Origin: Ascaphus truei
Taxonomy: Eukaryota; Chordata; Amphibia; Anura; Ascaphidae
Direction: 5' to 3'
Assembly: GCA_036426205.1 (NCBI GenBank)
Contig: WSYH01000138.1
Coordinates: forward strand, 246,513 to 310,512
DNA: 64,000 bases
Part shown: piece by piece, positions 954 through 60,097 of the stretch
Position numbering within the stretch: the stretch's first letter is position 1
Layout: each line of letters begins with the position of its first letter
Position numbers and translations under genes: made by a program
Notes under the pieces: model-generated
Database searches by the model: none
Told to the model about the DNA's origin: nothing
Seen by the model: the letters and a program-made list of their open reading frames with translations, nothing else

Positions 954-1060
954 TGAAAAAGGGCTATTTTAAATATTTAATTCTTTAAATGCAGGCTGCT
1001 ACATAGTATATACATAAATATAATGAACGGGTATTTTATTTTTTATAACTGTTGATGCAG

Positions 1061-1268: not shown

Positions 1269-1369
1269 GTAACATATTTCCAAGTACTTTATTACAAGAC
1301 AAATAACAGCTGTATGTGCCAGTGAACATCTCATCTTCATGTTCCATCATTTATCAGCTCGGAAAAGTT

Positions 1370-3712: not shown

Positions 3713-3713
3713 G

Positions 3714-4255
3714 TGTAGCCCTAGTGCCCCAGCTATCCTCTTTTCTATGGCCCTAACTGTATAAGTCCTGCTAGACCCAGGTACTGTGTGGGATAAACTC
3801 TCTCATGGAGACCTAGCTTGTTGTTACAGCCTGGATACACTATTGCTGTATCCAGGGGCTGGCCTAACAACAACCAGAGAGTGATCCTTTGGGAGGATAC
3901 CGGCTGGGTCACATGCCCATGATGTGATGCCTCGGTATTGGACCTGTCCTGTTATGGGGTAGCGTTACAACCCCCTCCCCTGGGGTACAAAAGCTGACAG
4001 TCTCCAAGAAGTCAGAGCTTTCTTCCCTCGCTCTGTGGAGTGGAAGCACTTGAAAGAGCTGAGAATGGGCTTGCAGGGCCTCAAGCCCGGTGGGTACTAC
4101 TTCAGGGAATGTGCCTGTCATAACTGTATGTATGCTGCAAACAAAGATCCAGTTGAACACATCTGTTGTGGCTACTTGAATGGAACACTACATGAGTAGT
4201 GTGGAGTTAAACAGGGAGTTCAACTTGAGTGAAACAAGTGGACAACAACTACTGG
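3714..4255 (+). repeat. LTR-like repeat, boundaries uncertain
   Basis: The interval begins with TGTAGCCC, has a TACAAAAG box near 3986 and is unlike its neighbours. It could be a solo LTR, but I could not find a matching target-site duplication or a clear CA end before the L2 element begins. Its last ~55 bp recur inverted at 893-953. Confidence 0.35.
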
Positions 4256-8128: not shown

Positions 8129-8384
8129 GAGTTGCCAGTGTGGACCATCCTGACTGCACAAGGATCCTCACCAGCTGGAGGTGCTGCACTATGACAGGTA
8201 ATCACTGAGAGCCTGTCCTCATGTCTCCCATACCATCGCAAAGTTCTCATGGCCTTCTGTTCTACCAAACAGATATGCACCACATCAGAACACACTGGTA
8301 GCTATATGATCTCACTTAGGGTGGGGGAAAAGGTGCTACATATGTGTTCAGACACTAATAATAGTATTTTGTCTTTAATTTCAG

Positions 8385-8814
8385 AGAGGAATGGCAGGTA
8401 AAGGAAGACAAAGTAAGAAGAGCTGTCAAACAGGTTGTAAAATGGGATGTTTCTAAAGACGATCCTCTAGACCCTGTCGTCTTGCCACAAGTGGACTGTG
8501 TGCTCAGCCTTTGGTCTCTAAATTGTATTAGCAGAGACAAGGATGCTTACCGGAGCAACCTGAGAAAATTTACATCACTACTGAATATTGGGGGTCACCT
8601 GTTACTCTTTGGGGGGTTAAATATGACATATTATACAGTTAATGAGCACAGGTTCTTTAACCTGTCATATGATGAGAAGTTTTTAAGAGAGGCACTCAGG
8701 GATGCAGGGTACATCATTGAGAATATGGATGTGCTCCCCAGCAGAAAGGGCTCGGATTTGTTAGATTATGAACATGTTGCATGTGTTATAGCGCGCAAGG
8801 AGAGGGAGGTTTAA
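8385..8814 (+). CDS. Terminal coding exon (exon 3) of the N-methyltransferase-like gene
   Basis: This exon encodes the C-terminal half of the NNMT/INMT-type SAM methyltransferase begun in exon 2. The acceptor is 'tctttaatttcag' at 8384; the frame is phase-matched to exon 2. The peptide reads EEWQVKEDKVRRAVKQVVKWDVSK, then LPQVDCVLSLWSLNCIS (the strand where the family has the motif II/post-binding Asp), LNIGGHLLLFGGLN (motif III), YDEKFLREALRDAGYIIE and a final EHVACVIARKEREV before TAA at 8812. Length and end agree with family members (about 143 residues for this exon). No stop or frameshift is seen in exons 2 or 3, so the gene may be functional if exon 1 exists upstream. Substrate specificity cannot be read from this. 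Confidence 0.88.
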
Positions 8815-18129: not shown

Positions 18130-19560
18130 CAGCAACCCTGCTGTAAACATGGTGTATATATATATATATTTGTTTTACATTATCTGTTGGGCTGAATTAA
18201 ATCCCTAGCTGCATGCTTGATGTAGTCACCACTATTAGGGTGTTATTAATGCATTTAGCCAATCCACCTGTAACTGCTTATTGTGCAGCTTGTGGGAGGT
18301 TTGTAGCCCCTCCTCTAAAGGTATATATTCTCCAAGTAAAGTCCCTGCAAATTCATTTTTATGTCACTTTCCACTTCACAAGTAGTGAGTGTCCTAAGAC
18401 TTGCCTATATGTGAGGTTTTTTACTGGTACTGTATATACCAGTTTTTAATTCCACAAAGTCACAGAAGAATATTCTTTATTTATAGACCCCTCAGGGCAT
18501 ATTTCACATTTTCAATGCATTTAGCATAGGGACCTGATAAAGAGGATTACCTTGACGTTGGTTAGCAGGCTTGTCATGATTTGATAAAAATATGCAACCA
18601 AAAGTCACCTTTGTAATATAGACCTAGGTTTAAAATGTATGTTTTTCACAAAAAGAGGGTGAGGGGGTTCTGGGCCCTGAGCGCTTATACCAATGGTAGT
18701 GTGGATTCATGCTCTGGGGGGGTGGGGGTCTTCAAGTCTCTGGGGGTCATGTGGAGCAGGTTGTGGCATCACAGCTGGTGTGGCAAGCCGTGGGGGGTCT
18801 GAGCAGGCCTGGCACAGGGAGGGGCCTGTTGAGGTTAATGTGGCAGGGGCTTTGGGCCTGACTGCAATTTTGATGTGTGTACTTCATGCCTTTGGAGAAT
18901 GGGGGGATTTCTTATGTGGGGGGCAGGCAGCGGTTACCAATATGGCCAGACTGGGGTCGTCATTATGGGTGGAAGTAGGATGAGGTGCAGGGGTCACGCA
19001 GTCAGTGGCTGCCAGCCCAGCTCCCGCAGGGGGTGGCAATACCGGCAGCAGTGGTAGGACGCGCAACGGTGGGAATAGCAGTTGCAAGTAATGTGGCGGA
19101 TGTGTTTTACAAGAACACATACAGCTGTAGCGGCCATTATTCGAATAAATAACACGTGTATAAATCGGAATACCCATGTCATGGCGCGTGATGTTTTCCA
19201 ATGTACCGCCTTAGACGCGTGATGTTTCGGGTTTCTATCGGGTGCAGAAAATTGCATTTTAGCCCAGGCTGCAATACCGTCGAGAAACTCAAGTGGGCGA
19301 TCGCGAGTTGTTGTCTTAAAAATCTAATAGCAATTCAACCTGTCTTTTATTGCTTTACAGTTCAGCAAGTGTGTTTGTGTAATTGTAATTTGAAGATTAA
19401 CGTTACGAGTTCATACTGTATAGTGTACATGGGAAAGAAGTCCTTTCTGAGGCTGCTTAGCCATGCACAGATTAAAAATACAATGACACATATACAGAAT
19501 AATAAAGGGAAAAGAAGTAATACAAAAATACATTGTCGCATCTTCTTCCGAATGTAAAAT
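18130..19560. other. Intergenic sequence, no gene supported
   Basis: A G-rich stretch at 18690-19080 gives open frames on both strands without recognisable domains. I regard it as non-coding repeat or gene-free sequence. Confidence 0.35.
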
Positions 19561-19564
19561 ATTT

Positions 19565-21035
19565 TTTCCGCTCATGCGTGTACAGTATGTCTAAATGGAA
19601 CCTTGTTGAAATGCATATGCGTGTCATCACATTTCAATATGTATTATTTATTAATCAATACTTTTGCTAGGCTTGCTCTTCTTTTCATACGGTTTTTATT
19701 TTATGCGCATGCGTGTACTGTACATATGTCTCATTGGAACCTTGTTGAACGCATATGCGTGTCATGCCTTAGACGCATGCATGTATGTCTCATTGGAACC
19801 TTGTTGAAACGCATATGTGTGTCATCACATTTAGGCGCATGCGTTTATGACTTCTCATTCAATGTGAATTTCAAGTATGAAAAAAAAAACATTTTTTTGT
19901 TTTGTTTCTCGACATGGGCTTGCATAACAATTTTTGGTATTTTTAGAATCAATCACTAGCTTTTTAATTCTACACTAGTCATGTACACTATACTGTACTT
20001 CATGAGGTGGGTGGCATACTGTGATTTTTATTTGGCGGTGTGGGGTTCAAAACATTATGTTGACCTGTTGAAAATATTTTTTAACTAAGAATCCAGCATA
20101 CTGTCCTCTCCTCCCCCCCCCCCCCGCCCACACACACACAAGGCTAAAGTATTTCTACTTCTTTTGACACCTTGTCACCTCCCCCAAAATAATTCATTTG
20201 TAACTGGAGGCTTTGTGGCTTAGTATAATCTTCCTGAGCCCGGGTTCAAACGCGCATGCGTACGTGTGAAAAGCCTTTCTTGGGGCTTTGACGAGAATCA
20301 CTTCTCATTCCATGTGAATTTCAAGTCTGAAAAAAAAAAACATTTTTTTTGTTTTGTTTCTCGACATGGGCTTGCATAACATTTTTTGCTATTCTTAGAA
20401 TCAATCACTAGCTTTTTAATTCTACACTAGATATGTACATTATACTGTACTTTATGAGGTGTGTGTACTGTGATTTTTATTTGGGGGTGTGGGGATCAAA
20501 ACAAGATGATGAACTGTGGAAAATATTTCTTTGAACTAATAATCCATCATATAGCCCTCTCCCCACCACACACACACACAAGGCTAAAGTATTTCTACTT
20601 CTTATCTACATACCCCCCCCCCCCCCGAGAGCCATTCATGAAAATCTTTGAGGCTTTGTTTACAGCTATCCACAACTCCCCCAAAGCAATTCATTTGTTA
20701 AAGGCACCTCTCCCCCCCTCCCCCCCACCCCACACACACACACACACACACACACAAAGTTCAAATGATTCTCATGAATTTAAAGAAGGAACAATTTTAT
20801 TTGTGCAGGATATTCATGGAAAAATGGAAAAATTAATAATAAAAAAAGACAGTATGTCGCCTCTCCTTCCAAATTTACAATCTTGACTTTATCTTCTTCG
20901 TAATGGCGGTAGTTCTTTTGTCATTGAGAGAGGGGGGGTTTGTGTAAATTACTGATGGTTGCTACATTATACACACAGTACAATACATTTACACATGCCC
21001 CCCTTCCTGGTCTGCTGCATCTCTGAAAAGAAAAG
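19565..21035. repeat. Left inverted block of the transposase module
   Basis: The inner part (20760-21035) is the complement of 24865-25110. The outer part has subterminal repeats around 'cgcatatgcgtttcaac', 'aaggttccaatgagacata' and 'cgcatgcgcctaaatgtg' (19570-19850), matching in inverted orientation the units at 25140-25320. It also contains a direct duplication of about 440 bp (19850-20290 and 20299-20740; shared 'ctcgacatgggcttgcataa' and 'gaatcaatcactagcttttt'). I interpret it as a long, internally repetitive terminal inverted repeat. Confidence 0.65.
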
Positions 21036-21365
21036 AAAAAATGAGTGCAGTAAAGTGCATTTAAGGCATTGCGTACAGTATATCACTACTGTATATGCAA
21101 ACTATATACAGTATAACTGTATAACTACTGTATAACTGCAAAAAAAGCTGCACTACTCTAAGTCCCTTATTTATACTGTATACGGTATCCTGTACTGTAA
21201 CTATGTACTGTATAACTATAACTATACTACTGTAGGTTAGACACATCCTGTACTTGATTTAATACTGTATATACTGTACAGTAAAAGTGGAGAGGAAGGG
21301 TTGACATAAAATGGTTATTTTGATTTCCATACTTACCTGTATCATACTTACCTGTACTTACCATA

Positions 21366-23240
21366 CTACAGTACCTTACTATTTTCCTGTGGCCTGCCAA
21401 TTACCGTGTAAAAGAATAGGCAACACGGTCGCAATATGATCGATATATTTATTGCTTCTTTGTACGTGAGCATGTTGTTCCAGAAACTCATTATTCCTTC
21501 AGCTAATTCATCCATTTTGGACGGTTTCAACACTTTTCTGATATAATCCTTCAACTGATGCCATACCAATTCGATGGGATTCAAGTCTGTGGATCTTGAA
21601 TTGGAGGGGGGGAAAAAGGTTAATTAGTTAAAGAGATATAGTGTAAACAGTGTAAAAAATGATTAACGGTTACCGAACTTACTCTGGTGGCGTCTTAACC
21701 CAGTTGATACTGCTGGCAAGAATATGGCCAATAGACGCGGTGTGTTTCGGATCATTGTCCTGGAAGAAACAGTGACCAGATGGGAAATCACACGTAATGT
21801 ATTCAACAATCTCTGGCACTATTTTCTCTTGGAAAAATACTTTATTCATGATTCCTGGAACAAGAAAAGAAAAATGTAACATTATGGTACCAAATACTGT
21901 ACACTACAGCTGTACAGTGCATAAGGCCACAGCATGTGGATTTGTGCATTATTTTACCCTCAAAGATGATGATGCATCCTGGTCCACGTCTAGAGATCAC
22001 ACCCTACACATGCATCTTCACTGGGTGCTTGGGACGCGGCTTCAGAGATAGGCGTCCTTTTTTGGAGAATGCAAAAGTGGCAAATCTCTCAAGCGATACA
22101 GTTGTCTCATCAGTAAAGATGACATCCTGAAAAGTCTCACCACTTTCGATCCATGCCCGTGCCTGGTCCACTATTTTGAACTTGTTGGCCTCCCTTATCA
22201 TAGGATATGCTCTGTAATGACAAGGAATAATTGTAAAGGTACAGTAAAACCACACTTTTATCTACTGGTCTTGGTACTGGTATTTAGTACTACAGTATAT
22301 GCAATATGCAGTACTGTACATTGTTACAGTAAGAGACTCACCTTACACGTACATATTTCCATCCCAATTTGCATCTCATCAGTCTGATGCTGGTCTCAGA
22401 AGCTGTTATGTTGTGAGTTTTCTCAAGAGCATTCTTGACCCTTGTGGCACATCTCTCATCATTCTCTTCACTTATTTGGTCCACCAGTAGCTTTGTCTCC
22501 TACAGTGTAAAGGAAAACAGAACAATTTGTTACAGTAGGCCCCAAATTTTGTCTCCAATAAATTTAATACTGACTAACCTCAAAACTACAGCACTTACTG
22601 TATTCCCCATTATAACCTCTTATATTGTAAGCTCTTCGGGGCAGGAATTTCCTTTCCTATTGTCTGATTTTGCTGCACTTATTTCTTATTTGCTACACTT
22701 ATTGTATTATTAAAATTCCCTTTACTGTATTCTTTTTGAAGCAATAAGTATACTTTTGCCGCTATATAAATAAAGACATACAATACAATATGCAATGCAG
22801 TGGATGTGTGACTGAGATATTTCCATTAAGCAGTGAAGACTATGCCACCTCATATCGTACTGTACTGTACATGACCAGTATACAGTCGAAATTACAAGTG
22901 ATTTTAAGAATGTAAAAATTGATAAAATATTAAAAACAGGCATACAGTTATCTGATAGGAAAAAGGTACTGTAACAACACTAATGCGTTTTACCAGTAAT
23001 AGTTTATAGTACATACAGTATTGTAACAGTAAAAAAAAACAAAAATACTTACTCAGTAGTGACTGTGGGGGTCCGCTTTACACTTTTGTCCTTACCATGG
23101 GCATGATAACAGACAGTGCTTCGTGCTAAAATGAGACTCGAAGACACTGTCCAGCATTGGATCTGTGAAATTCAGTGTCCTTTTTGGTACATATCTGTAT
23201 TCTCATGCTGAGATCCTTTGAAATCTTTTTTATCAGCATC
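21366..23240 (-). pseudogene. Five-exon Tc1/mariner-like transposase, module copy 1
   Basis: A cut-and-paste DDE transposase would excise and insert the element at its ends. Inferred exons on the minus strand: 23240-23053 (HTH N-terminus, KISKDLSMRI, then frameshifted), 22500-22342, 22211-21958, 21854-21683 and 21594-21366. Donors gtaagt, gtgagt, gtaaaa and gtaagt and acceptors ctgtag, attacag, ttccag and attcaag keep the frame; for example the last junction reads PPE-STDLNPIE. Catalytic pieces are FTDETTV (first D), [10 protein letters not shown] (second D) and DLNPIE (E), with about 32 residues between second D and E, against 34 in Tc1. A TAG replaces the conserved Trp after HPVKMHV. An L2 tail lies in intron 1. 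Probably inactive. Confidence 0.8.
22605..22795 (+). mobile_element. L2 LINE 3' tail in the transposase intron
   Basis: It shares with the L2 element's 3' end 'ttgtaagctcttcggggcagg' and 'gctatataaataaagacat', followed by a short (ACAAT)-like end. It is a severely 5'-truncated insertion on the strand opposite to the transposase. Confidence 0.7.
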
Positions 23241-23591
23241 GCTGCTTTTAGACAAAAAAATCAAGCACAGAGGAATGTATATTCGATGTATCTTCGATGT
23301 GCATTGAATCAACAAAATGGATGGTGTATTTATACTTTAATTGGCCTCCGCTTCACTCGACAGGTTTAGTTCCCAGCACGCCCACTTTTAACACCTGCAG
23401 CTCGTGTCCATGCCTGCGAAAATAATTCAAATAGGGACACAGTGTATAAAAGTTGACACAAATTGCATAGCCTCCCACATGCTGATCTCTATCTGAACTT
23501 GCTCTTGTCCAGATACTGCATTGTGCATTGTTCATCTGCTTCCATGGATCTACCCTGATTCTATGGACGCAGGAACCTGCTTGCTTCTGCC
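23241..23591. promoter_or_regulatory. Divergent promoter region of module copy 1
   Basis: This 350-bp spacer separates the transposase and the BEN-like gene. It holds a TATAAATA box for the minus-strand gene (23327-23334) and a TATAAAAG box for the plus-strand gene (23445-23452). The same two boxes, in the same orientation and with a conserved 'aaaatggatggtgtatttata' context, occur at 45029-45036 and 45094-45102 in copy 2. Confidence 0.6.
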
Positions 23592-24760
23592 GTGCCAACC
23601 ACAAGAAAGCGAAAGGCGGAAGCTGTTTCTAAGCCAAAGCGAAAACCAAAGGAGAGTAAAGAAACCGTTCTGAAGACTCCAAAGGCTAAGAACCCTGGGC
23701 CTTATTATGTCAAGAAGAAATTCGCTGCCATACACACAAAGCAAAACAAAAGGAAGCCCGGGGATGACCCTTTGTTCACCGATGCTCTAGTGGGACCCGT
23801 CATCTCACCTGCTCCTGCACCCATCCACGACGCTGCTCTCCAGTGACCCCCATCTCACCTGCTCCTCCACCCATCCACGATGCTGCTCTCCTGGGACCCC
23901 CCATCTTACCTGCTCCTGCTCCCATCCACGATGCTGCTCTCCTGGGACCCCCCATCTCACCTGCTCCTGCACCTACCCACAACGATGTCAACAGTACTCC
24001 TCGCACCAGATCCAGCTTGTTCGCCCACATGCTGAATGGTTTAAGTTGTGTCAAAATCCATGACAACTCTGCGGTGCAAAAGATTGATATTCTTTTGGAG
24101 ACCATGTTGAATATGGATAGGCGTATGGAGAAGATGGAGAGGAACATCGCGGGGATCTATTATTTGCTTGGAGTTCCTTCCCCTGTGTATCTTACGAAGG
24201 AGGGTGGTCTGGATGTGGGCTTCATGCTTCCATCACCAAGCGCACTAGGTGCCCCCCCACGCTCACTCCCTCCGTCTGCAGAATACATGTATGCCCTTGA
24301 TGAGGATGAGATGACAACCCTGGTTAGGCCACGACAGGAGGAAAGCATCCTCCCAGACCACTTACCCTCGCCTGCTGCCAGAAGCACACCCGCACCCAAG
24401 ATTGTAACGCTCCCAGACATCATCTTGAGCAAACTGCCCCTGCGCATCCGGGGGGAAATACAAGATCGGAAGTGCTGGTCTAGCCCACAAATATGCCCTG
24501 TCCATCTTTAAACACCACGTCAGTTTTGAGATGTTCAGCGGGTGGACCCACAATTTAAATTATAAAGGGAATTAAAGCAAGAAGGGTCTGCCGCCAAATT
24601 TAAGGAAAACAATTTTGGAGGAAGTGCAGCGTTATTTTCTTGTTAACGTTCATGTTATGAGAACCGTGAGAGACACCATCAATGGCCTTTTGAGGCATAA
24701 AAGGGCTCGCCCCTGGAAGGCCGGCCCATTTGGGAACGACTTGCTGTTTGATTGTACTGT
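23592..24760 (+). pseudogene. BEN-like domain/coiled-coil protein gene, module copy 1
   Basis: Transcribed away from the transposase. The first frame (from 23592) gives a basic, NLS-like N-terminus with KRKAEAVSKPKRKPKE and PYYVKKKFA. A second frame (23843-24511) gives three Pro-rich units of about 17 residues (PAPAPIHDAALLGPP), a coiled-coil candidate KIDILLETMLNMDRRMEKM and an acidic stretch. A third frame (about 24472-24760) carries a BEN-domain-like block: AGLAHKYALSIFKHH, LNYKGN, then GLPPNLRKTILEEV and RTVRDTINGLLRHKRARPW. BEN domains bind DNA or chromatin proteins, so a role in element-end binding or regulation is plausible but inferred. Two frameshifts and an internal stop break the gene; the same order is seen in copy 2. 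Confidence 0.65.
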
Positions 24761-24849
24761 ATACTGTAGTTCAAAAGTTATATAAAAATGTTTTTACTCC
24801 CCCAAACAAATTGATTGTTTTAAATTATTTCATTTTTTAATGTTTTAAA

Positions 24850-25345
24850 TGCTTTTCTCTTTTCTTTTCAGAGCTGCTGCAGGCCAGGAAGAGGGGAGGC
24901 ATGTGTAAATGTATTGTACTGTGTGTATAATGTAGCAACCGTCAGTAATTTACACAAACCCCTCCTCTCTCAATAACAAAAGAACTACAGCCATTACGAA
25001 GAAGAGAAAGTCAAGAAGAAGCGACCTACTGTATTTTTGTATTGTTTATTTTTCCATGATTGTCCTGTACAAATAAAATTGTTTCTTCTTTAAATTCATG
25101 AGAATCATTGAAACACCCCCACCCCCAAAGAAAAATTAACATGCTGTACACGCATGCGCCTAAATGTGATGACACGCAGGCGCCTAAATGTGATGACACG
25201 CATATGCATTTCAACTAGGTTCCAATGACACATACACGCATGCAGGCGCCTAAATGTGATGACACGCATATGCGTTTCAACAAGGTTCCAATGAGACATA
25301 CACACATGTGCCTAAAATAAAAACAGTTTGAAAAGAAGAATAAGC
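24850..25345. repeat. Right inverted block of the transposase module
   Basis: It is the complement of parts of 19565-21035: 'tgtaaatgtattgtactgtg', 'attacgaagaagagaaagtc' and the 'cgcatatgcgtttcaacaag' subterminal repeats in two to three units (25140-25320). It starts right after a pyrimidine tract with a possible splice acceptor (ttttcag at 24870). It is absent from the equivalent place in copy 2. Confidence 0.65.
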
Positions 25346-26060
25346 CTAGCTAAAGTTGAAAGTATTGAGTAATATAGAATAATAAATAATAAATATAGAA
25401 TAAAAGATCTACATTTTTATTTTTGGGGTTTCTTAGAATCTAATTAAACATGCAAGTGTATTGTAATTATACTGCAAAATGCAACGTCAAAGTAGTGATG
25501 ATTACAGTACAATGTAAAAGATTTTCTATTAAGCTCACAATTATTATATCTTAATCACTAAAAATTGCACTGTCACTAAATTTTTGCCAATTAGGATTTT
25601 TAAAAAAGATTTGCAATCTGCTAACAAAGTTTTAAAAAGGTGATATTAGAGGTTCATCCTTTCTTTCCATCCATCCATCTCTCCTTTTGCCTTTTTCCGT
25701 TTGATGTCAAAGTTTCTTTTCTGGGGGAAAAAAAAGTATGCTATTATTTCCGGTATAGCGCATGCGTCAAGTCGTTGCAGCAGTTCAAGCAATATCCTAC
25801 AGTACATGTCTATCTGTACGATGGGAACAAACTTCTGATAGGCTCTGGTTCTTGAGCCCCACCCTCTCCCTAGCTGTCCACCAATTGTATCTACTGTAGT
25901 AATTGCTCAGTCAATCATATTGCAGGACTACATTTTCAATAATTGTGCAAGAATTTAATTAAATTAAATAACCCTTAAAAAAGAATATGTTTTTTTAAGC
26001 GGCAGCTTGAACTGCAGCTTTACATTTAATACTTTACTGTACATTGTATTTAGCTTCATT
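25346..26060. other. Sequence between the right block and the forkhead gene
   Basis: AT-rich. The segment around 25880-25925 ('tatctactgtag...gctcagtcaatcatattgc') matches copy 2 near 46845-46885, so it belongs to the shared module. No gene is supported here; a downstream exon of the forkhead gene may exist but was not found. Confidence 0.4.
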
Positions 26061-26065
26061 ATTAC

Positions 26066-26703
26066 CTTTGCCAAACGGGTGGAGATGAGCTACTGGCACT
26101 CCCGTAGTCTGCATTATAGTTGACAGGTGATAGCTGGCCTGCTACACCTGTAGTTGACAGCTGATGAAGCTGGAAATCTTTTTGGTACATGCAAGCTTGC
26201 TGGTACCTCTCTGGGAAATCAGGCTCAGGCTGGACATTTTACATGTTTTCTGACGGGGACAGGTAGCAAACGATTACCGTTCGCCAAGTTTTCACTGACG
26301 ACCAGACCATTATTGTAAGCCGGTGCTGGTGCTGTTGCCAGCGCTGTTACATTGCTGGATTGGGATTGATGAATCTTATATGGATTAAACCCGACCTTTC
26401 TTCTTTTGAAATTGCCATGATCAAACATTCTGTAAAAATCAGGGACAAGACCCCAATACCCGCATGTATCTCCGGCAGGAGGGGCAATGCGAAAAAAACA
26501 CTGATCATTACTTAAGGTTTTTCTTATCGAACGCTTCCAACCACGAATGTCAGGTGAAAACTTGTAAAAAATCAAATTTCGAAATTTAAAAAATCATATA
26601 TTTCGGCTACAGTCACCATGTTATCTGCTGTAGGATTAATTGCAGAACATATTAAAAATGCATTACTACAGTCAGGTTTTTGATACGTCTGCGGTGTGCA
26701 CAT
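26066..26703 (-). pseudogene. Forkhead-domain protein gene, module copy 1
   Basis: Forkhead (winged-helix) domains bind DNA in the nucleus. The minus-strand frame starts at ATG 26703 and reads QKPDCSNAFLI, INPTADNMVTVAEIYDFL (helices 1-2), then after a 1-bp frame change near 26578 YKFSPDIRGWKRSIRKTLS (recognition helix 3; canonical W..SIR..LS), CFFRIAPP, GYWGLVPDFYRMFDHGNFKRRK (wing 2). The tail has QACMYQKDFQLHQLS and LSPVNYNADYGS before a donor 'gtaata' at 26065, so a further exon is expected. The domain is divergent from the standard Fox families I know. The tail is conserved in copy 2, which argues that it was a real protein. One frameshift suggests decay. Confidence 0.75.
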
Positions 26704-26869
26704 TATGTCCACAGTGACATCGTTGCACCAACCGGAACCTCTGGATGCGGATGTCGTCACTTCCGGCTGCCGGTGAGACGCATTCGTGACACGCACGCCA
26801 GCACAGAGGGAGAGCTGAGAGAAGACTCATCCGGTTGCAGAGATTGCAGAGATCCACTTGTGATCTAAA

Positions 26870-28257: not shown

Positions 28258-28544
28258 CGAGCTATCACGCTGGGCTGAAAAAAAATAGCACGTCTGATAA
28301 CAAATGAAGCCGGCGGCGCGATTCACTAAGTCTCTCAGCCCATTTCCTATCGGACGTGCCGAAAACTGGCTTATCATGCGTGCAAGCTTTTTTCTCTCTG
28401 CTATCGCACTTAAAGTTCACGTATGCTACCTGAAAGGAAAAAAAGCCGCACGTTACATTTGCATGGAGATTGGCTATCTCCATGCAAGGCTATTACTGGT
28501 GATCGTACACTAAATAAATACATTTTATTTATAGTGTACATGAG

Positions 28545-28790
28545 CAGGGGGTCTCCGGAGTTGAACCGCATTGGTTTCATGTCCGAGGACCCCCTACTTC
28601 ATGAGATACAGGCCCCGATATGGGGTGCCGGTATCCCTTGCAGTTTAAAGCTCCCGCGTCACGTGACCGGGTAATTTACATTCTGCAGGGGATACCGGCA
28701 CCCCATAAAGGGGCCTGTATCTCCTGAACTAGGGGGTCCTCGGACCTGAAACCAATGTGGTTCAGCTCAGGAGACCTCCTGCACATCTAC
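28545..28790. repeat. Palindromic foldback unit (copy 2)
   Basis: Arms 'ggtctccggagttgaaccgc', 'ggtttcatgtccgaggaccc' and 'gatacaggccccgatatggg' are mirrored as complements in 28685-28790. It is clearly related to 9130-9375. Confidence 0.75.
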
Positions 28791-28813
28791 ACTAGTATTA
28801 AAACATACATAAC

Positions 28814-30071
28814 TGTAGCCAGGTCCCCCTTCCGTTGCGAGACTCCCCCCCTCCGAGTACTCATTGCGACCGGTAGCGGGGAGGTGCGGGGGCGTGCGCG
28901 AGCATAGCGCACCTCTCCTAGGGATTTGGCCTGTTGCTAGGGCCATGGTCGCGTTGCAGAGGTCCCAGCGGCTCACGGTTCAGGGCGCCGCCATTTCAAG
29001 TTGCGTTGCGCATGCACATGAGCCAGAAGTGCCGGGAGGCCCAAAGACAATTCACGCATGCACAGTGAGTAGCGCGGCAACCCGGACGAATAGGAAGAGG
29101 GCTCTTGGAGGGGACTACATGTCCCATGAGCTTCCACTGCCCCACGTGACCCCAGGGAGCCAATAGGGCTACAGCATCTCCCTACAGGGGAGAATAGATA
29201 CTGTACATTTCATGGGCTTGGAGCACGTTAGGCAGTTGGTGACCGGAGCAGCTAGGGGAAGGAGGTAGGAAGCAGGAGTCAGTGACTCCCTGCACTAGGT
29301 CAGCAGCCCCCTAGATCCCAGATAGCCCTGAGTCACCAGTAGTGTTGTGTTGTTCAGGGACAGGCCCCAGGTTAGGGACCCTGCCCCTTATTATTATCCA
29401 GAGTCAGTTAGGGACACAGCGGATGCTGCGCTTCCATCCAGAGGTCTGGGCTCAGACCTTCGCTGTCGCTGCAGCAGCCATCCAGGTGGGATCGCCCCGG
29501 ACGGTAGTTCCTGTGGTTAGCGGTCATCGGATCCTTTGTGAAGCTCCTTGGCAGGCCCGGGCACTGGAATGCTCGGCAGGTAACCATCAACAAGTGCACC
29601 AACTATACTCTATTATATTTACACGGGACTTGTGGCTGCGCAGTCACACATATCAATCTCACGTGAAGGGACATATTGTGTGGGAGTTACTGGACATGGG
29701 TTGGGATCACCTGGTGAAAGGGGTAGCATCCTGCGAGACGCAGTAGTTAGTGTCTCCTCTAGAGAGGGACACCTGTTATACATATATGCATAAGCACGGT
29801 TGCTACAGTAAAGTTATTGGTTGTTTTACATGCTGTGTGTGTGATATATATATTTTCCTGCGAGGATCACTCCCCCTCTGGTGGGAGCCATCGCAGGTGG
29901 AGGCGCTGCACCGAGTACGAGGGTACTCCTATTATTACACGTGCCCCAGGCTCCCCGTGGCGGAGGCTTAGGCCCCCTGTGAGCCGAACAGGTAAAGCAC
30001 CACACCTGGTAACATTAGGTTCCCCGCACACACATACCATAAGCTCTTGGGTTGGGGGAATACCTGTTACA
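28814..30071 (+). repeat. 5' LTR of the Ty3/gypsy element
   Basis: 1258 bp, starts TGTAGCCAGG and ends CCTGTTACA. It differs from the 3' LTR by scattered substitutions plus two small indels of about 14-17 bp (near 28935 and 29125); I judge identity at roughly 95% by eye. A 'ggtggaggcgctgcaccgag' segment at 29897 resembles the primer-binding site. Confidence 0.9.
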
Positions 30072-30073
30072 TT

Positions 30074-35989: not shown

Positions 35990-37220
35990 TGTAGCCTGGT
36001 CCCCTTTCCGTTGCGAGACTCCCCCCCTCCGGGTACTCACTGCGGCTGGTAGCGGGGAGGTGCGGGGGCGTGCGTGAGCATAGCGCGCCTCTCCTAGGGA
36101 TGCGGCCAGTTGCCGTCACGTTGCAGAGGTCCCGGCAGCTCGCGGCTCAAGGCGCCGCCATTGCAAGTTGCGTTTCGCATGCACAGGAGCCAGAAGTGCC
36201 GGGAGGCCCACAGACAGGTCACGCACGCACAGTGAGTAGCGCGGCAACCCGGACGAATAGGAAGAGGGCTCTTGGAGGGGACTACATGCCCCACCTGACC
36301 CCAGGGAGCCAATAGGGCTACAGCATCTCCCTACAGGGGAGAATAGATACATTTCGTGGGCTTGGAGCATGTTAGGCAGTTGGTGACCGGAGCAGCTAGG
36401 GGAAGGAGGTAGGGTGCAGGAGTCAGTGACTCCCTGCACTAGGCCAGCAGCCCCCTAGGTCCCAGATAGCCCTTAGTCACCAGTAGTGTTGTGCTGTTCA
36501 GGGACAGGCCCCAGGTTAGGGACCCTGCCCCTTATTATTATCCAGAGTCAGTTAGGGACACAGTGAACGCTGCGCTTCCATCCAGAGGTCTGGGCTCAAA
36601 CCTTTGCTGTCGCTGCAGCAGCCATCCAGGTGGGATCGCCCCGGATGGTAGTTCCTGTGGTCAGCGGTCATCGGATCCTTTGTGAAGCTCCTTGGCAGGC
36701 CCGGGCACTGGAGTGCTTGGCAGGTAACCATCAACAAGTGCACCAACTATACTCTATAATATTTACACGGGACTTGTGGCTGCGCAGTCACACATATCAA
36801 TCTCACGGGAAGGGACATATTGTGTGGGAGTTTCTGGACACGGGGTGGGATCACTCGGTGAAAGGGGGTAGCGTCCTGCGATATGCAGTAGTTAGTGTCT
36901 CCTTTAGAGAGGGACACCTGTTATACATATATGCATAAGCACGGTTGCTACAGTAAAGTTATTGGTTGTTTTACATGCTGTGTGTGTGATATATATATAT
37001 ATTTTTTCCTGCGAGGATCACTCCCCCTCTGGTGGGAGCCATCGCAGGTGGAGGCGTTGCACAGAGTACGAGGGTATTCCTATTATTACACGTGCCCCAG
37101 GCTCCCCGTGGTGGAGGCTTAGGCCCCATGTGAGCCGAACAGGTAAAGCACCACACCTGGTAACATTAGGTTCCCCGCACACACATACCATATGCTCTTG
37201 GGTGGGGGAATACCCGTTAC
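35990..37220 (+). repeat. 3' LTR of the Ty3/gypsy element
   Basis: Starts TGTAGCCTGG right after the polypurine tract 'cagggggagga' (35979-35989) and ends CCCGTTAC(A). Homologous throughout to 28814-30071. Confidence 0.9.
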
Positions 37221-37299
37221 ATAACAATAAACAATAATTCATTACCGTAGCGGCTATCCGCTATGGTAATGAAGCTGCTTTAATGTATTTTAAATAATA

Positions 37300-37575
37300 G
37301 TGTGCGGGAGCAGGGAGTCCCCTGAGCTGAACCGCATTGATTTCTGCCTCAGAGACCCCCTGCTTCCCAAGTTACAGGCCCCGGTAGGGAGCATCGGGTG
37401 CCAGTGTCGCCGCCATCTTTATAGCATCCAAGACGCGACGTGGGCTCTATAAAGATGGCGTCCACACTGGCACCGATGCCCCAAACCGGGGCCTGTAACT
37501 CGGGAAGCAGGGGGTCTCTGAGGCAGAAATCAATGCGGTTCAGCTCAGGGGACCCCCTGCTCCCGCATACTATTA
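37300..37575. repeat. Palindromic foldback unit (copy 3)
   Basis: Left arm 'gcgggagcagggagtcccct', 'gctgaaccgcattgatttct' and 'agttacaggccccgg' is mirrored by its complement to 37575, with 'cgccatctttatagc' and 'gctataaagatggcg'-type words near the centre (about 37430). Confidence 0.8.
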
Positions 37576-38223
37576 ATAAAAATAAATTAATGCAGCTTCA
37601 TTACCTGAGCGGATAGCCGCTAAGGCAATGAAGGGGTTAAGGCACATTAGCATGTTTATTGGGGACAATTGCCCCCAATAAACAACACACATCTCCCCCG
37701 CCCCCTAACACGTACAGTACAGTAATGGCCAAAATCACTATTATCCACATGTGGATAATAATGCATTTGGCCATTTTAAATACATATAAATTACAATAAA
37801 TACAGTCAAAACATATTACACTTACCTTTTACAGGCACTCACGATGAAGGCCATCTTCATCCTCATCTTCATTCTGCCCATGCCCCTCCGGTGCTGCAAA
37901 ACATGCACAACAATCACAATAGCCAATGTAATGTCCCATAAACCCTTAATCACCGCTATTAACCGCTACAGTCATTAAGAGGTTAACCCACCCTCACCCA
38001 CCACTCGGGAGGCCTACATACCTTCCCACTCTAACCCCCCACCCCGTGAGGCCTAACCACCCTCACCCACTACCCACAAGGGAGGCCTACCCACATTCCC
38101 TTTGGGCCAATACACACCACCCCCCCCCCCCTAACACATACAGTACAATAATGTGCCAAATAACTATTATCCAGATATATATATATATTATTTGCCCATT
38201 ATTAAACACATAAAACATGCATA

Positions 38224-43605: not shown

Positions 43606-43609
43606 TTAC

Positions 43610-44933
43610 TCTGCTGGCGTCTTCACCCAGTTGATACCGCGCTCAAGGATATGCGCTGTTGACGCGGTGTGCTTCGGATCGTTGTCCTGGAAGAAACGGT
43701 GACCATCCGGGAACTCACGGGTGATGTATTCCACAATCTCAGGCACAATTTTCTCTTGGAAGAAAGCTTTATTCATGATTCTTATAACAAGAAAAGAAAA
43801 GTGCTCAAAGAACTGCACACTAGTACAGTGCGTAAGGCAAAAGCGTGTGACATACATTTTACTGTACCTTCAAAGATGACGATGCATCCTGGTCCACATC
43901 TAGAGATGGCACCCTACACATGCATCTTCACTGGGTGTTTTGGACGCGGCTTCATAGATATGCAAACTTTTTTGTGGAATGCAAAGGTGGCAAATCTCTC
44001 CAGCGAAACAGTAGACTCGTCAGTGAAAATGCAATCCTGGAAAGTTCCTCCACTGTCGATCCATGCCTGGGCCTGGAACACTCTCTTCATTTTATTAACG
44101 TCCCTTATCATAGGGTACGCTCTGTAATGACAAGGAATAAATAATTTTAGAGGTACAGTACAGTTTCTTAAACAACACTTTTACCTCCTGTACTGTCCAG
44201 TACTAACCTCACACGTCCATATTTCCATCCAATTCTGCGTCTCATCTTCTTTATTCTGGTCTCGGATACAGTGAGATTGTGATTTTTCTGCAGAGTGTAT
44301 TTGACCCTTAATGTACTCTTCTCATCATTCTCTTCACTTATTTTGTCGACCAGAAGAGTTGTCTCCCTACAATGTACAGAAAAACAACAATCCGGTAAGT
44401 TACAGTGCAGTAGGCCACAAGCACAGCACATAATTTGCAGTAAAAATAGTATACAATGAGATAGATCTACACAATATATAGTTCTATTAATATGCAGCAA
44501 TATACACAATAGATATACTGTAGTTATATAAATATACCGAAATAACTATAAAATTAGATAGATCTACACAATATATAGTTCTATTAATAGGCAGCAATAT
44601 AAACAATAGATATACTGTAGTTATATAAATATTCCAAAATAACTATAAAATTAGATAGATCTACACAATATATAGTTCTATTAATATGCAGCAATATAAA
44701 CAATAATAGATATACTGTATTATATAGTAATATAAATATACGTACGCGTTAGTTACTGTTGGTGTCGTCGTGCGTTGTTTGGTTTTTCCGTGTGCATGAT
44801 AGCACACGGTGGTTAATGGCACAACGAGGCCGGAAGCAGCTAACCAGCGTTGGATATCTGCAATTCGGTGTCCGCTCGTGTACATCTCCTTAATTCTCAT
44901 GCTGAGATCCTTTGAAATCTTTATAACAGGCAT
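43610..44933 (-). pseudogene. Tc1/mariner-like transposase, module copy 2 (four of five exons)
   Basis: Exons on the minus strand: 44933-44746 (intact HTH part: KISKDLSMRIKEMYTSGHR, then ADIQRWLAASGL), 44366-44208 (VDKISEENDEKSTLRVKYTL), 44121-43868 (FTDESTVSLERF, HPVKMHV, then TAG) and about 43791-43610 ([11 protein letters not shown]). Introns sit at the same places as in copy 1, with donors gtacgt, gttagt, gtacag and gtaagg. The acceptor of exon 4 has changed from AG to AA. The last exon, with DLNPIE, is missing because the element is cut at 43605. The same TAG replaces the conserved Trp as in copy 1. A 97-bp tandem repeat fills intron 1. Confidence 0.8.
44461..44735. repeat. 97-bp tandem repeat in transposase intron 1
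   Basis: Units start 'atagatctacacaatatata' at 44461, 44558 and 44655, giving about 2.8 copies. Confidence 0.85.
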
Positions 44934-45234
44934 TGCTGCGAGTAGAAAGAAATACAAACACAAGAATGTATATTCGATGTTTAGTCAATGTGTATTCAAT
45001 GTGCAGTGAATCCACAAAATGGATGGTGTATTTATACGTTAATGACTCACATTAGAGTACGCCCACTTTCAACACCTGTACCTCGTCGCCATGCATAAAA
45101 GGTTACACACTTTGCGTAGGCTCCCAGTCGATGATCTGTATCTGAAGTTGCCCTTGTCCACATACTGCATTGTGCCATCTGCATCCATGGATCAACCCCG
45201 ATTCTATGGATGAAGGAACCCACTCACCTCTGCC
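44934..45234. promoter_or_regulatory. Divergent promoter region of module copy 2
   Basis: Opposed TATA boxes at 45029-45036 (TATAAATA, minus) and about 45094-45102 (CATAAAAGG, plus), matching the arrangement at 23327-23452. Confidence 0.6.
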
Positions 45235-46660
45235 ATGCCTGTCACACAGAAAAAGCAAAAGGCGGCAGCCGTTTCCACACCAAGGCCAAAGCGACAGGCT
45301 AAGGCCAATAGAGAAAACCTTCTGCTGACCCCAAAGTCTAAGGATTTTAATAGACGTAAGTCTTATTATGTCAAGAAGAAATACGGTGATGTATACTCAA
45401 CGCAAAAAAAATGGCAGCCAACCCATTGAACCCGCAGACCACTTCCTCCAATACACTTCGACGACTCTGCCGCCGCTCTCCTGGAAATCTACAGCCCCTC
45501 TTCACCACTACTCGTCCACGACGCTGCCGCAGCTCTCCCAGAAACCCACAGGCCATCTTCGCCACTGCTCTTCGACGCCGCTGCCACTGGTGCCCCTGAA
45601 ATCCACCGGTCACTTTCTCAATTACGCTTAAACGACTCTGCCGCTTCTCGCCCAGTAATCCACAGGTCACTTTCTCCATCCCTCTTCGACGACGCTGCCG
45701 CTTCTCATCTCCCGGAAATCCACAGGTCACCTATTCCATCCTTCTCCGACAACGCTGCCGCTTCTCTCCATGGAACCCCCATCTTATCCTCCGTAGCACC
45801 CATCCACCCAGATGTCCATAGCACGGCATGCACAAGAACCAGCTCGTTAGACCGCATGCTGAATGGGTTAAGTGTGGATATCCCCGGGAACTCTACTGTG
45901 CTGGTAAAGATAGATCTGCTTCTGGAGACCATGCTAAATATGGATCAATGGATGGAGAAGATGGATCGACGGATGGAGAAGATAGAGACTGACATAGCGG
46001 GGATACATAATTTGCTCGGTGTTCATGCCCCTGTATCCCAGATGCCGGAGCAGGAGGGTGGCATGGATGTGGTGAATGGGACCTTCAACCGCCTTCCAAC
46101 ACCAAGCGCAACCCCTCCACCAGATGAATTTGTGAACATGTATGCTGCTGATGAGGAGGATAACATGACAACCCCGTCAAGACCACGCCAGGAGACAACA
46201 CGGTGACCAAGACAGGAGGAAAGCTTGCTCCCAGACAACATACCGTCGCCCGCCGCCACAAGCACACCCGCTCACAGAAGAACACCCACTCCCAGAACCC
46301 AACCTATATACGCTTGCATCGATATGATGCCCGACATCATCCTGTGCGAGCTGCCACCGGAACTCAGGAAAAGTATAGGGTGATAAGTGCTGGTTTACCC
46401 CAGAAGTATGCCATGTTAATTTTTAAGCACCACATGTCCTACTTGGTGTACTGTGGGTGGGCCTACAGTGTGAACTACAAAGGAAATCACAAAAAAGGGG
46501 CGCTTCCTGAAAATTTAAGGACTATTGTGGAGGAATTGCGGCGCTAATTTTCAATTACAGATCTTTTAATGAAAAGCGTTCGAGACTCCAATAATGGCAT
46601 TTTGCGCCATACAAGGCATCGGCCCTGGAAGAACAATCTGGTGGGTATCGCATTTGCGTG
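45235..46660 (+). pseudogene. BEN-like domain/coiled-coil protein gene, module copy 2
   Basis: Homologous to 23592-24760. It has the basic N-terminus (KKQKAAAVSTPRPKRQAK, YYVKKKYGDVY), then a coding-type minisatellite of about 45-48 bp with an 'IHRSLSP-LFDDAAA'-like product in six or seven units (about 45440-45770), then DRMLNGLSVDIPGNSTVLVK, the coiled-coil candidate KIDLLLETMLNMDQWMEKM and GIHNLLGVHAPV, and finally the BEN-like block (46380-46620): AGLPQKYAMLIFKHHMSY, VNYKGN, GALPENLRTIVEELRR, VRDSNNGILRHTRHRPW. Frameshifts near 45425, 45780, 46206 and 46380 and a stop within the domain break it. Two AATAAA sites follow (46723, 46758). No domain-level relative was checked. Confidence 0.65.
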
Positions 46661-46968
46661 ACTGTTCAACTATTGTTTATTTTTTTAAATGTTTTTGTAA
46701 ATGTTTTGACTCTCTGTACTTTAATAAAGGAGATGTTGCGTGTTTTAACTTGTATTAATAAAGAAATGTTTTTACTTACTGTACACAAGACTTGCACAAT
46801 TCCAGTCCACGAGGGCTGCAAACAGGCACGGTTTTCAAGGCTATCTACTGTAGAAGCCGCTCAGCCAATGATATTGCTTACAGTAGAATCGCTTGACTTT
46901 TGAATCGCACTGATATTGATATTTTAAAAATAAAAAAAAACAGAAAAAAATACGGCAACATTACTCAC

Positions 46969-47600
46969 CATAGACATTCCCAATCAGCTGGCGCCGAGCC
47001 ACTGCCAGTCCCGTATTCTTGATCATACACTTCATTGACAGGTGACAGCGGGACTACTACAACTGTAGTCAGCTGATAAGGCTGGAAATCGCTTAGGTAC
47101 ATGCAAGCTTGCTCGAAACTGTATGCGAAATCCGTCTCAGGCTGCAGGTATCCAGGCGTGGACAGACAGCAAGGGTTGTCACTGACGGTCGGACCGTTAT
47201 TGGAAGCCGGTGCTGGTGCTGGCGCATTGCTTGCCAACGACTGTCATTTTTTAGTTGGTTTTAACACGACCTTTCGCCTTTTGCCGTCTGCATGATCATA
47301 GATACTGGAATAACCCGGTGATACAGTACACACCAATACCTCCAATAAAATCGGGATCAATACGAAAAAACCATGGATAGCTACTTTTTCCTTATTGCAT
47401 GCTTCCACACATGAGGAGCTGGCGAAAATTTGTAAAAGTCATAGTTTTCGATAAAATACTGATAATTTGAACAACGGTTGCCATCTTATTATCCGTTGCA
47501 TTAATCGCGTCTTATTATCCGTTGCATTAATCGCGGCCCATATTAAATAAGCGTACGTTCTGTCGGGTTTTTGGAACACGGACTGCAGTTGTGCACTCAT
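46969..47600 (-). pseudogene. Forkhead-domain protein gene, module copy 2
   Basis: The start at 47600 reads QKPDRTYAYLIWAAINATDN, a good helix 1 of a forkhead domain. A 26-bp tandem duplication (47481-47532) then shifts the frame. Further pieces are IENYDFYKFSPAPHVWKHAIRKK followed by a stop, DHADGKRRKVVLKPTKK, and a tail (47237-46969) with EQACMYLSDFQPYQL and LSPVNEVYDQEYGTGSGSAP. The tail matches copy 1. A donor 'gtgagt' lies at 46968. It is more decayed than copy 1. Same position and orientation relative to the BEN-like gene as in copy 1, but without the inverted block in between. Confidence 0.7.
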
Positions 47601-47879
47601 GGCGGGACTCTCAGGACAATAAACAGACCAGAAACTGTGCTTGACTTTTTTTAATATGAAAAGCCTAAATTGATACATTATTGTAACTTCTTCCTTCAGT
47701 CCCAAGGCCGTGAAGAATTGCAACCAATTAAATCCGAACCATTATTAATAAACACATCAACTGCGCATCAACCGCGGCTATGAATGTTGTATAAATGCTG
47801 TCAGAATGCAGCATGAACGTGGTGAAGTGCGGTGAAGTGACTGGCATTCGGAAAAAAATCCCGGAAAAATTTGGAGATG

Positions 47880-50014
47880 TTGGAGAATAAAAGGGGCCGC
47901 GGCTGCATGTGTTTGGGTTGGAAGATTCTGGTTATCGTAAGAAGTCCATATTTATCCCCAATTATAACAGGGGCCCATCCATTACCACATTTGAACGTTT
48001 GGTTGAACGAGATCTAAGATTACTTTCACAAGGTTTTTCATATTCCAATGTTAATTCTGGTAATTTGACTTATACAAAAGTACAACAAATTGACAAATAA
48101 AGAAAAAATGTAACATTGTGATCAGGAATGCTGACAAGGGGGAGCCCTAGTGATATTGTCCTCTAATCAATATAAACAAGAAGCACTGAGGCAGTTACAT
48201 GATGCCAACTTTTATCAGGTTCTTAAGGAGGAACTTACATCTGTGTACTCTTCTGAATTGATTGAATTACTATCCTTTGGGAGAATTCTAAATGTTATCA
48301 GTCTTAAAGAATGTGAATTTTTCAACTGTCCACATCCCATCATTCTGGTATTCCACCATCTCCCAAAGATCCATAAATCGCTGGTCGACCCTCCTGGATG
48401 ACCAATGGTTGCGAGTATTGGATCTTTGGGAGATGGGTTATCGTGGTATGTGGACAAGCTTTTATAGCCCCTGGTTTTCCAACTTCCTTCCTTTATTAGG
48501 GATACAGCGGATCTCATTCTAAAATTACAGGATCTTAACTGGCATAAGGAATATAGGTAGGTCACATTAGATGTGACCTCCCTGTATTCTATTATTGATC
48601 ACAATCACGGTCTTAAAGCCACACGACACTTTCTTGATTTATCCACTTTATCTGTTTCACATTGCATTTTTTTACAAGAATCAATATTTTTTTTCCTCAC
48701 TCACAATTATATTTTATTCGATTCATGTTTTTATTTACAGAAATTGGGCACCGCTATGGGCATGAGTTTTGCACATTCATACGCCAATTTGTTTATGGGT
48801 TTTTGGGAGTCACATTTTATTTATCACCTTAATAATTATTTTCGTCATAATATCGTCTTTTTTAAGAGGTATATTGACGATTTGATATTAATTTTGAACG
48901 GTGATGAGCACTCTTTATTTTCTTTTGTTCAATATTTAAACACCAATGATTATAATATTAAATTCAATTTGAGCACAATATTAATCACATCCATTATTTA
49001 GATTTGACCCTGTACATTGACAGTGAGATGAATATTCAGACCGATATTTTTCGAAAAGAGAATTCCAGGAATATGCTTCTCAATGCACGGAGTTGTCACC
49101 CCCGTTCATTGATTAGGAATATTCCTGGATCTCAATTTATGAGATTGAAGAGACTTTGCTCTAATAATGATATTTTCCTGTCAAGATCAAAGGAAATGTT
49201 TGACAGATTTTTGGCCAGGGGCTATTCTACAAAGGACATACAGGCAGCCTTTGTTAAAGCTGACTCTATAGATAGAGATGTTCTTATTCGGAAGAATGGA
49301 TTTAGGTCTAAAACACCAAAAATGTCATCATATACTACTACACAAAGTCCATTTTTTATAACTACTTATAGTTCACAATCATCATTACTTTCTAAAATCA
49401 AATCTAAACATTGGCACACACTTTTGTTGGATGAGGATATTGGTACCTCATTGCAAAGTGGACCTAGATTCACTTTTCGCAAGGCTAAAACTTTGGCCTC
49501 CCACCTTTCACCAAGTCTTTTTGACTCTAACTTAAGTCTTCCTAACATCCCAACTATACCAAAGGGTTTTTATAGCTGTGCTAATTGCTCTACGTGTCAG
49601 TATGCATTACCTGCAAAATGTATAACCTATGCGAATGGTATTAAAAAGTTTTATATTAAGAATTTTCTTAATTGTAACACAAGTTTTATTGTGTATGTCC
49701 TTTTTTGTGCATGTGGCCACAGATATGTCGGCCGCACTATTAGACCTCTTAGGCTTCGTATAGCTGAACATACTCGCTTGATTAAAAAGAAGGATTTGGT
49801 TCACCCACTATCCAGACATTTCTCGCAATGCCCTAGGGGGGGCATTGGGAATTTCTCCTTTTCTGCTATTGAACATGTACCCCATCACCCCAGGGGTGGT
49901 AATAGGGAGAATATGTTAAATAAAAAAGAGATGTACTGGATATATACTCTCAGTACTCTCCATCCCCTCGGAATCATCTCTGACTGGGAGTTGAAACACT
50001 TTCTTCAGGAATGA
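47880..50014 (+). pseudogene. Penelope-like element I: reverse transcriptase with GIY-YIG endonuclease
   Basis: Penelope-like elements encode one protein with a telomerase-like reverse transcriptase and a C-terminal GIY-YIG nuclease. Early parts are broken (47909-48100, LVERDLRLLSQGF; 48150-48401, HHLPKIHKSLVDPP). RT motifs A (DVTSLYSI), B (LGTAMGMSFAHSYANLFMGF) and C (FKRYIDDLIL) are at 48570-48890. The intact last part (49004-50014, 336 codons) has CANCSTCQYA and the GIY-YIG region IVYVLFCACGHRYVGRTIRP, then LRLRIAEHTR. It is about 50-60% similar by eye to the element at 61653. At least five breaks. Confidence 0.88.
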
Positions 50015-60090: not shown

Positions 60091-60097
60091 TGTAGGG

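Follow-up and report, generated by a model that had tools for sequence, protein, structure and literature searches.

A multi-gene Tc1/mariner-type transposon carrying a forkhead gene in the frog Ascaphus truei

Introduction

What is a forkhead gene doing beside a Tc1-like transposase gene in a frog genome, when a typical Tc1/mariner element has just one gene, without introns and about 1 kb long? The locus that raises this question lies in a 64,000-nucleotide stretch of Ascaphus truei DNA (GenBank assembly GCA_036426205.1, contig WSYH01000138.1, positions 246,513 to 310,512), which we call the window and which appears as C1785:246513-310512 in our genome-wide searches. An original prediction, made from the letters alone, had placed at 21366..26703 a mobile module of three genes, namely an intron-containing transposase gene, a second gene with a BEN-like block and a forkhead gene, and had read them as a transposon lineage that carries two accessory DNA-binding proteins. 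We confirm that the module exists and can move, and that the A. truei element is a multi-gene cut-and-paste transposon of the Tc1/mariner type, about 8-9 kb long, with 35-bp terminal inverted repeats (TIRs) that have TA edges. The reading we prefer, at a probability of roughly 0.6, is that this would be a working transposon whose forkhead protein serves as a transcription or chromatin-access factor specific to the element.

The element and its ends

Copy 1 of the element occupies 19120..26711 of the window (plus strand) and is collinear with a full-length copy of 8,966 bp at C13062:36050-45015 (hereafter the C13062 copy; positions 28-8575 of 9026, 30-nt flanks included), whose 35-bp TIRs are identical at 33 of 35 positions. 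Alignment of relatives to copy 1 revealed homology continuing beyond the forkhead gene as far as TACAGCTGYAGCRGCC..., and this end sequence, inverted, was found at window position 19120 as well as at C13062:45015 and 36050. The left TIR of copy 1, TACAGCTGTAGCGGCCATTATTCGAATAAAT..., lies at 19120..19154 (plus strand; C1785:265632, one mismatch). Because the alignment to the C13062 copy spans window positions 19117 to 26711, the left end of copy 1 is complete, and about 420 bp at the right, right TIR included, are absent. The three genes sit where they had been predicted, between 21366 and 26703, and the left boundary of the element had to be moved outward to 19120. TA stands at each outer edge in the C13062 copy and likewise in a short derivative, L077, where it may be a target-site duplication but could also be the terminal bases of the repeat itself.

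Searching the genome for the 34-base end with at most 3 mismatches returned 714 forward and 713 reverse places, against 0 and 0 for the reversed-pattern control. Among 100 listed of these 1,427 places, there were six, judged by eye, at which the TIR faced one of the 150 best forkhead matches in the correct orientation and lay 531-572 bp upstream of it; at a seventh the forkhead match was about 2.2 kb away. L077 (C1:118028684-118030599) is a 1,916-bp deletion derivative with TIRs identical at 35 of 35 positions, in which the forkhead-side end, reaching into a stop-bearing forkhead gene, is fused to the transposase-side end. Because L077 joins both, the transposase-side and forkhead-side ends belong to one mobile unit and move together.

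Copy 1 also contains internal inverted repeats: a left arm at 20764..21041 (plus strand) pairs at 83% with a right arm at 24853..25109 (minus strand) that separates the second gene from the forkhead gene, and a further inverted segment at 25174..25388 (minus strand) pairs with 19638-19844. The C13062 copy likewise repeats left-end sequence between its second gene and its forkhead gene (90% and 79%). Such internal repeats suggest that the element once ended at an older right terminus, beyond which the forkhead gene and today's right end were later added. As candidates for the termini of the element, the long inverted arms (19.5-21.0 and 24.85-25.4 kb) were rejected, being internal in the C13062 copy, with the true left end lying farther out.

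Recurrence of the module

As had been predicted, the same three genes appear in the same order and orientations at 43610-47600, there as a decayed copy of another subfamily (copy 2; 43606..47909, plus strand). Copy 2 is interrupted in its transposase gene at 43606, before exon 5, has its right end near 47909 by alignment, and retains remnants of transposase exons 1-4 (43610..44935, minus strand), of the second gene (45187..46661, plus strand) and of a broken forkhead gene (46968..47600, minus strand). Decay has reached copy 1 too: its forkhead gene is frameshifted, its second gene changes frame and contains a TAA, and its transposase gene has both stops and frameshifts.

Scoring was confined to the best 150 places per gene (second gene, forkhead and transposase exon 3), drawn from 8,800, 13,709 and 8,343 first-look candidates, respectively, figures which are not copy counts. 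With the window excluded, 22 of 23 gene pairs at most 10 kb apart had the window's order and orientation, where about 0.5 would be expected by chance. By comparison, these were 6/6 for transposase and second gene, 9/9 for second gene and forkhead, and 7/8 for transposase and forkhead (0.16 pairs expected each); at most 15 kb apart, the same comparisons gave 6/7, 9/10 and 9/10 in the window's order, with the locus at C3:108.1 Mb counted in more than one comparison. Gene pairs thus recur elsewhere in the order seen here, and the pattern that would have told against the original prediction, a transposase alone or a forkhead far from it, did not appear; some loci, L075 for one, do have fewer genes. 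Loci L032 and L033 held no forkhead inside the 7.6 kb fetched, and the genome search places one beyond each stretch.

These observations bear on the proposal that only chance has brought the three genes together, or that both window loci derive from one segmental duplication, which could point to there being just two copies in the window and to a neighbourhood rich in insertions. Copy 1 is 88-93% identical in DNA to the C13062 copy and 64-74% identical to copy 2; being closer to the former, it shows that the window copies are different subfamilies, and on this identity pattern a single duplication for both was rejected. Together with the excess of ordered pairs, the complete two-ended copy and the deletion derivative, the divergence pattern leaves us giving practically no credence to either form of that proposal.

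The transposase

The five minus-strand exons of the transposase, with canonical GT/AG splice sites, were confirmed in copy 1. Exon 1 (23053..23239; donor GTAAGT; homologous to copy 2 and to L029, a copy elsewhere in the genome) holds a decayed first helix-turn-helix, and exon 2 (22342..22500), delimited by its splice sites, holds a helix-turn-helix of Tc3_2 type, a domain matched in the L029 copy (HTH_Tnp_Tc3_2, E 2.6e-5, 24.8 bits, under the curated cut-off of 31.5). The first catalytic Asp (FTDET) is in exon 3 (21958..22212), which carries an in-frame TAG at 22004-22006, the second (QDNDPKH) in exon 4 (21683..21855), and the catalytic Glu (STDLNPIE) in exon 5 (21379..21594), which has a frameshift near the C-terminus and by itself matches DDE_3 at E 1.8e-4. 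Spliced together, the catalytic region of copy 1 covered positions 1-145 of the 146 in the Pfam DDE_3 model, with an E value of 8.4e-15, and another copy, L075, matched the Sleeping Beauty catalytic domain at E 5.4e-15; a PAX-like match reached only E 0.12. The DETT stretch is missing from L029's own transposase. An NCBI gene model of a further A. truei copy (P0011) has the identical exon 2/3 join, an exon 3/4 join that agrees with copy 1 to within one residue, and no exon 5.

Counted by eye, the second Asp and the Glu are 32 residues apart in copy 1, L075 and the relatives P0001 and P0003. Tc1 proper has 34 residues there (DD34E), so that this transposase is Tc1-like and not Tc1 proper. A protein search with L075 exons 3-5 placed 541 of 607 candidates at E<=0.001, and among the best 120, which were considered, was a 343-aa protein of X. 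laevis at 61% identity. Relatives among the matches listed are about 337-343 aa long, and some lie on contigs so short that introns would hardly fit (P0014: a 339-aa protein on 1,176 bases). The viral contig set held one stretch encoding a transposase relative, and a search of phage sequences with the transposase gave no match. Judged by its sequence, this is an ordinary Tc1-like transposase.

A codon that reads TGG in L029 and L075 is TAG in both window transposases (HV*G; 22004-22006 and 43914-43916), in a region over which the window copies are only about 74% identical.

The forkhead gene and selection

The forkhead gene of copy 1 (26062..26703, minus strand, one frameshift within the domain) is transcribed inward from the element's right end. 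Its forkhead domain, which had been called clear, is certain: with the frameshift bridged by X it matches PF00250 at E 7.6e-14, and the intact 213-aa copy at L029 does so at E 3.5e-14, with FOX/HNF-3-type chains as the ten best of its 47 matches in the PDB. No stop interrupted the scored stretch in 123 of 150 forkhead copies (by eye, in a score-ranked list biased to intact copies). A protein search with the broken window forkhead found nothing at E<=0.001. A profile of nine open-frame mobile-type forkheads retrieved three proteins, of which two were from A. truei (one of them FKM82_000832) and one from Dactylellina cionopaga, and a forkhead search of the viral contig set gave no match.

Estimates of the ratio of nonsynonymous to synonymous substitution (dN/dS) were based on 21 forkhead sources (20 with long open frames, L070 giving none, plus L029), of which the 12 with full domain and tail were kept and eight others left out. 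Tc1-type forkheads had a median dN/dS of 0.446 (66 pairs, 12 copies), compared with 1.07 and 1.10 in shifted frames, and the domain alone had 0.37 (shifted frames 1.32 and 1.07). For the C-terminal part of the second gene the median was 0.43 over 36 pairs from 9 sequences, with 1.14 and 0.87 in shifted frames, and for transposase exons 1, 3 and 4 it was 0.39, 0.31 and 0.29 (14, 6 and 6 pairs; shifted 1.0-2.0). All three genes show signs of selection.

Long open frames in many scored copies would also be expected if the forkhead repeats were a domesticated host multigene family, with transposon copies around them through insertion bias. That explanation is very hard to sustain beside the near-constant spacing to the transposon end at six places, the fixed order with the transposase, and the scatter of copies across many contigs.

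Forkheads in Harbinger-type elements and the origin of the mobile set

The strongest non-host forkhead matches in the genome belong to a set distinct from the Tc1-type forkheads. At L010, a DDE_Tnp_4 transposase (PF13359, E 1.6e-10) is followed by a forkhead in an open 225-codon frame (E 1.6e-23) and by a Myb_DNA-bind_5 gene (PF13873, E 5.3e-6). The transposase and/or the Myb gene stood beside the forkhead, in the same order, at 15 of 20 chosen forkhead loci, with all three together at 4 and the forkhead plus one of the other two at 11; at L018, L025, L026, L027 and L028 neither a Harbinger-type transposase nor a Myb gene was seen beside the forkhead. This second set of loci has the look of forkhead-carrying PIF/Harbinger elements, and its forkheads (14 sequences) gave a dN/dS of 0.55 over 85 pairs (shifted frames 1.02 and 0.97).

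In a tree of 58 forkhead domains (65, less 8 that were near-copies or fragments, with the window copy added; 97 columns, long branches), a branch supported at 98/92 separates 37 mobile-type domains from the host FOX domains, 21 in number, and the Tc1-type set holds together at 100/100. A single origin of the mobile forkheads is compatible with this tree and not proven by it. The tree bears on whether the forkhead could be captured host DNA carried without function (transduplication), for which there is precedent in the capture of host gene pieces by Turmoil-1 (PMC2572040). Such passive carriage seems quite improbable when the forkhead dN/dS is about 0.45 with shifted-frame controls near 1, when stop-free copies prevail, in a list that favours them, and when the 98/92 branch leaves no close host parent among the 21 host domains sampled.

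Host and mobile domains differ at two base-contact positions of the recognition helix, which we take to correspond to FOXA Asn165 and His169. All 22 host domains examined have N..H, whereas Tc1-type forkheads have R..K in 15 of 19 and N..H in none of the 19, and Harbinger-type forkheads have N..R in 15 of 16. Since N..H is kept in third-set or intermediate forkheads (6 of 7) and replaced in the transposon families, the change of the recognition helix seems to be later than mobilisation. Its conservation within each transposon family suggests that the altered helices may read new target sites. Regarding their history, we lean, if only slightly, towards one mobile forkhead clade having passed between Tc1/mariner and PIF/Harbinger elements in one frog lineage, where it would have been kept by selection and its recognition helix rebuilt in each.

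Further observations concern these additional forkhead loci. L009-L017 and L019-L024 appear as PIF/Harbinger-type elements with a related forkhead between transposase and Myb-like gene, and an E/P/Q-rich repeat frame adjoins the forkhead in L009 and L010. A third mobile-type set (TRPHITFRELIFQAIES...) occurs at L018 6527-7192 (minus strand), with a coiled-coil-looking frame nearby, at L026 6441-7070 (minus strand; turned orientation), at L050 and in protein P0122, and L048, L051, L052 and L053 have host-like or near-host-like recognition helices, yet group with the transposon-type forkheads. The end-like sequence GGGGGCTATGCACTAAGC lies at window position 43605 (minus strand), where copy 2's transposase gene breaks off, and at 28238 (plus strand); it or a near-identical sequence is present in L011, L012, L015, L020, L021, L025 and L027, in several of them left of the Harbinger-forkhead block as a candidate left end. 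Near position 1934 of L022 (turned orientation), the start of the Harbinger-forkhead alignment adjoins a Tc1-type end that shares the subterminal motif CGGAATACCCAT, perhaps through a nested insertion, and L010 10-1106 (turned orientation) holds reverse transcriptase- and RNase H-like retroelement frames beside the Harbinger element.

The second gene

The second gene of copy 1 (23544..24782, plus strand, with frame changes and one TAA) reads divergently from the transposase and encodes a basic N-terminus, proline-rich PAPxPIHDAAL repeats and a heptad-like (coiled-coil-like) stretch. The basic N-terminus and the heptad-like stretch agree with the original prediction, and a BEN identity for the C-terminal domain, which it had termed BEN-like, was not supported, with Pfam BEN reaching only E 0.093. 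Within the second-gene family, PF10523 matched 1 of 8 members at E 0.076. Searched for across the genome, PF10523 gave 6 matches among 19 scored candidates, none of them at a second-gene place of the best-150 list, and four of the six sit on one 745-aa frame that resembles host BEND3. In a profile comparison with these four host BEN domains the second gene did not exceed the reversed control, and an AlphaFold model of the second protein, built from two sequences, was poor and helical only, at a predicted local distance difference test (pLDDT) score of 51. A BEN identity was thus not established by Pfam, PDB profile, fold or host BEN profile. Of the lineage with two accessory DNA-binding proteins that had been proposed, the two extra genes stand, and a DNA-binding domain has been established for the forkhead protein only.

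In L033, the C-terminal part of the second gene is present twice (15-572 and 3823-4587), about 4 kb apart, in what may be a nested or duplicated element.

What the forkhead may do for the element

From what is known of the family, the transposase would cut at the inverted repeats and reinsert the element at TA. Selection and fixed position together make it probable that the forkhead gene is functional in the element, in which case it would be a working part and not a passenger. We infer that its altered helix may recognise a non-canonical site within promoters of the element itself and so sustain element expression. More tentatively, the second protein may partner the transposase as a DNA-binding protein, in the manner of the Myb-like protein of Harbinger elements. 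Over the whole C13062 copy, on which 15 motif-region tests were made, the alternative forkhead core GACGC was counted 11 times, compared with 5.2 in shuffles, and 2 of 200 shuffles reached a count as high.

Several observations weigh against a transcriptional role within a working element. Four of the 11 GACGC sites fall inside tandem repeats in the coding sequence of the second gene, and within 400 bp of the ends there is one site on one side and 0 on the other. The canonical FOX core RTAAAYA does not occur in the outermost 400 bp at either end of the complete C13062 copy, and its 13 occurrences over the whole copy, only mildly more than the 8.7 in shuffles, were matched by 27 of 200 shuffles. 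L077 moved with a partial, stop-interrupted forkhead, so an intact forkhead gene is not needed in cis. At L075, the transposase and second gene are present, with no forkhead or TIR match within the 8 kb fetched, and the pair counts, coming from 150 of thousands of places per gene, do not give the share of copies that have all three genes. As to selection, the transposase sets are small (6, 4 and 4 copies for exons 1, 3 and 4), and the forkhead copies were selected for open frames and are related to one another, with pairs that are not independent.

The extra proteins might instead serve transposition itself, through end binding, transposase import or complex assembly, like the ORF1/Myb protein of PIF/Harbinger elements, and not transcription. 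Harbinger elements require two proteins (PMC2836001). The Harbinger-type loci described above, 4 of 20 with transposase, forkhead and Myb-like gene together and 11 with the forkhead and one other, fit such a role, as does the forkhead gene's position 531-572 bp from the right TIR at six places. Tc1/mariner transposases, on the other hand, usually act alone, with their own helix-turn-helix binding the ends, and the present one retains at least one such domain. No canonical FOX motif lies within 400 bp of either end, and end recognition through such a site was set aside, in a test that is weak because the recognition helix has changed. A role in transposition is therefore, to our minds, a doubtful contender, if one to be taken seriously, and we continue to favour the forkhead as an element-specific transcription or chromatin-access factor.

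Relation to known systems

With its Tc1/mariner relatives (for example, relatives of X. laevis LOC121396371 and zebrafish si:dkey-77f5.3), the A. truei element shares DDE_3, a Tc3_2 helix-turn-helix, TA edges and short inverted repeats; unlike them, it has five exons, a length of 8-9 kb and two further genes. With PIF/Harbinger elements, which pair DDE_Tnp_4 with a Myb-like protein, it shares the logic of a two-protein DNA transposon, although the transposase is of a different superfamily. Host FOX factors share the forkhead domain with the element protein (best solved matches FOXL2, FOXC2 and HNF-3), whereas the element's forkhead is mobile and multicopy and has the two main base-contact residues replaced.

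Other DNA transposons have also acquired additional genes. PMC3627910 describes Tc1/mariner elements, several of them in viral genomes, with captured Fanzor, endonuclease and methyltransferase genes; these mariner elements resemble ours in their extra proteins and three-protein architecture, and differ in that they carry Fanzor and enzymes, whereas the A. truei family is a vertebrate one with a forkhead and more than 1,000 end sequences. Kolobok lineages are distinguished by accessory proteins (nucleases, a helicase and KolX; PMC9587614), a likeness to our element that extends to neither the superfamily nor the accessories themselves. In PMC9341512, forkhead is mentioned solely in a reference.

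Our searches of the openly licensed PMC literature found no report of a transposon-borne forkhead gene, of a forkhead gene in Harbinger elements or of a 'DD32E' transposon. Transposons are known as donors of DNA-binding domains to their hosts, and here the flow looks reversed, with a developmental transcription-factor domain turned into a standing transposon gene, in two superfamilies. If these proteins do bind and activate their own elements, they would represent a new route by which DNA transposons control expression, and perhaps one that interferes with FOX-regulated host genes; such proteins would be selfish transcription factors belonging to transposons.

Other repeats in the window

Apart from the element copies, the window contains a 1.26-kb direct repeat at 28814-30072 and 35990-37222, 92% identical and flanked by hairpin-like repeats at 28523-28810 and 37283-37596. 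Dense tandem repeat arrays occupy 59239-61275.

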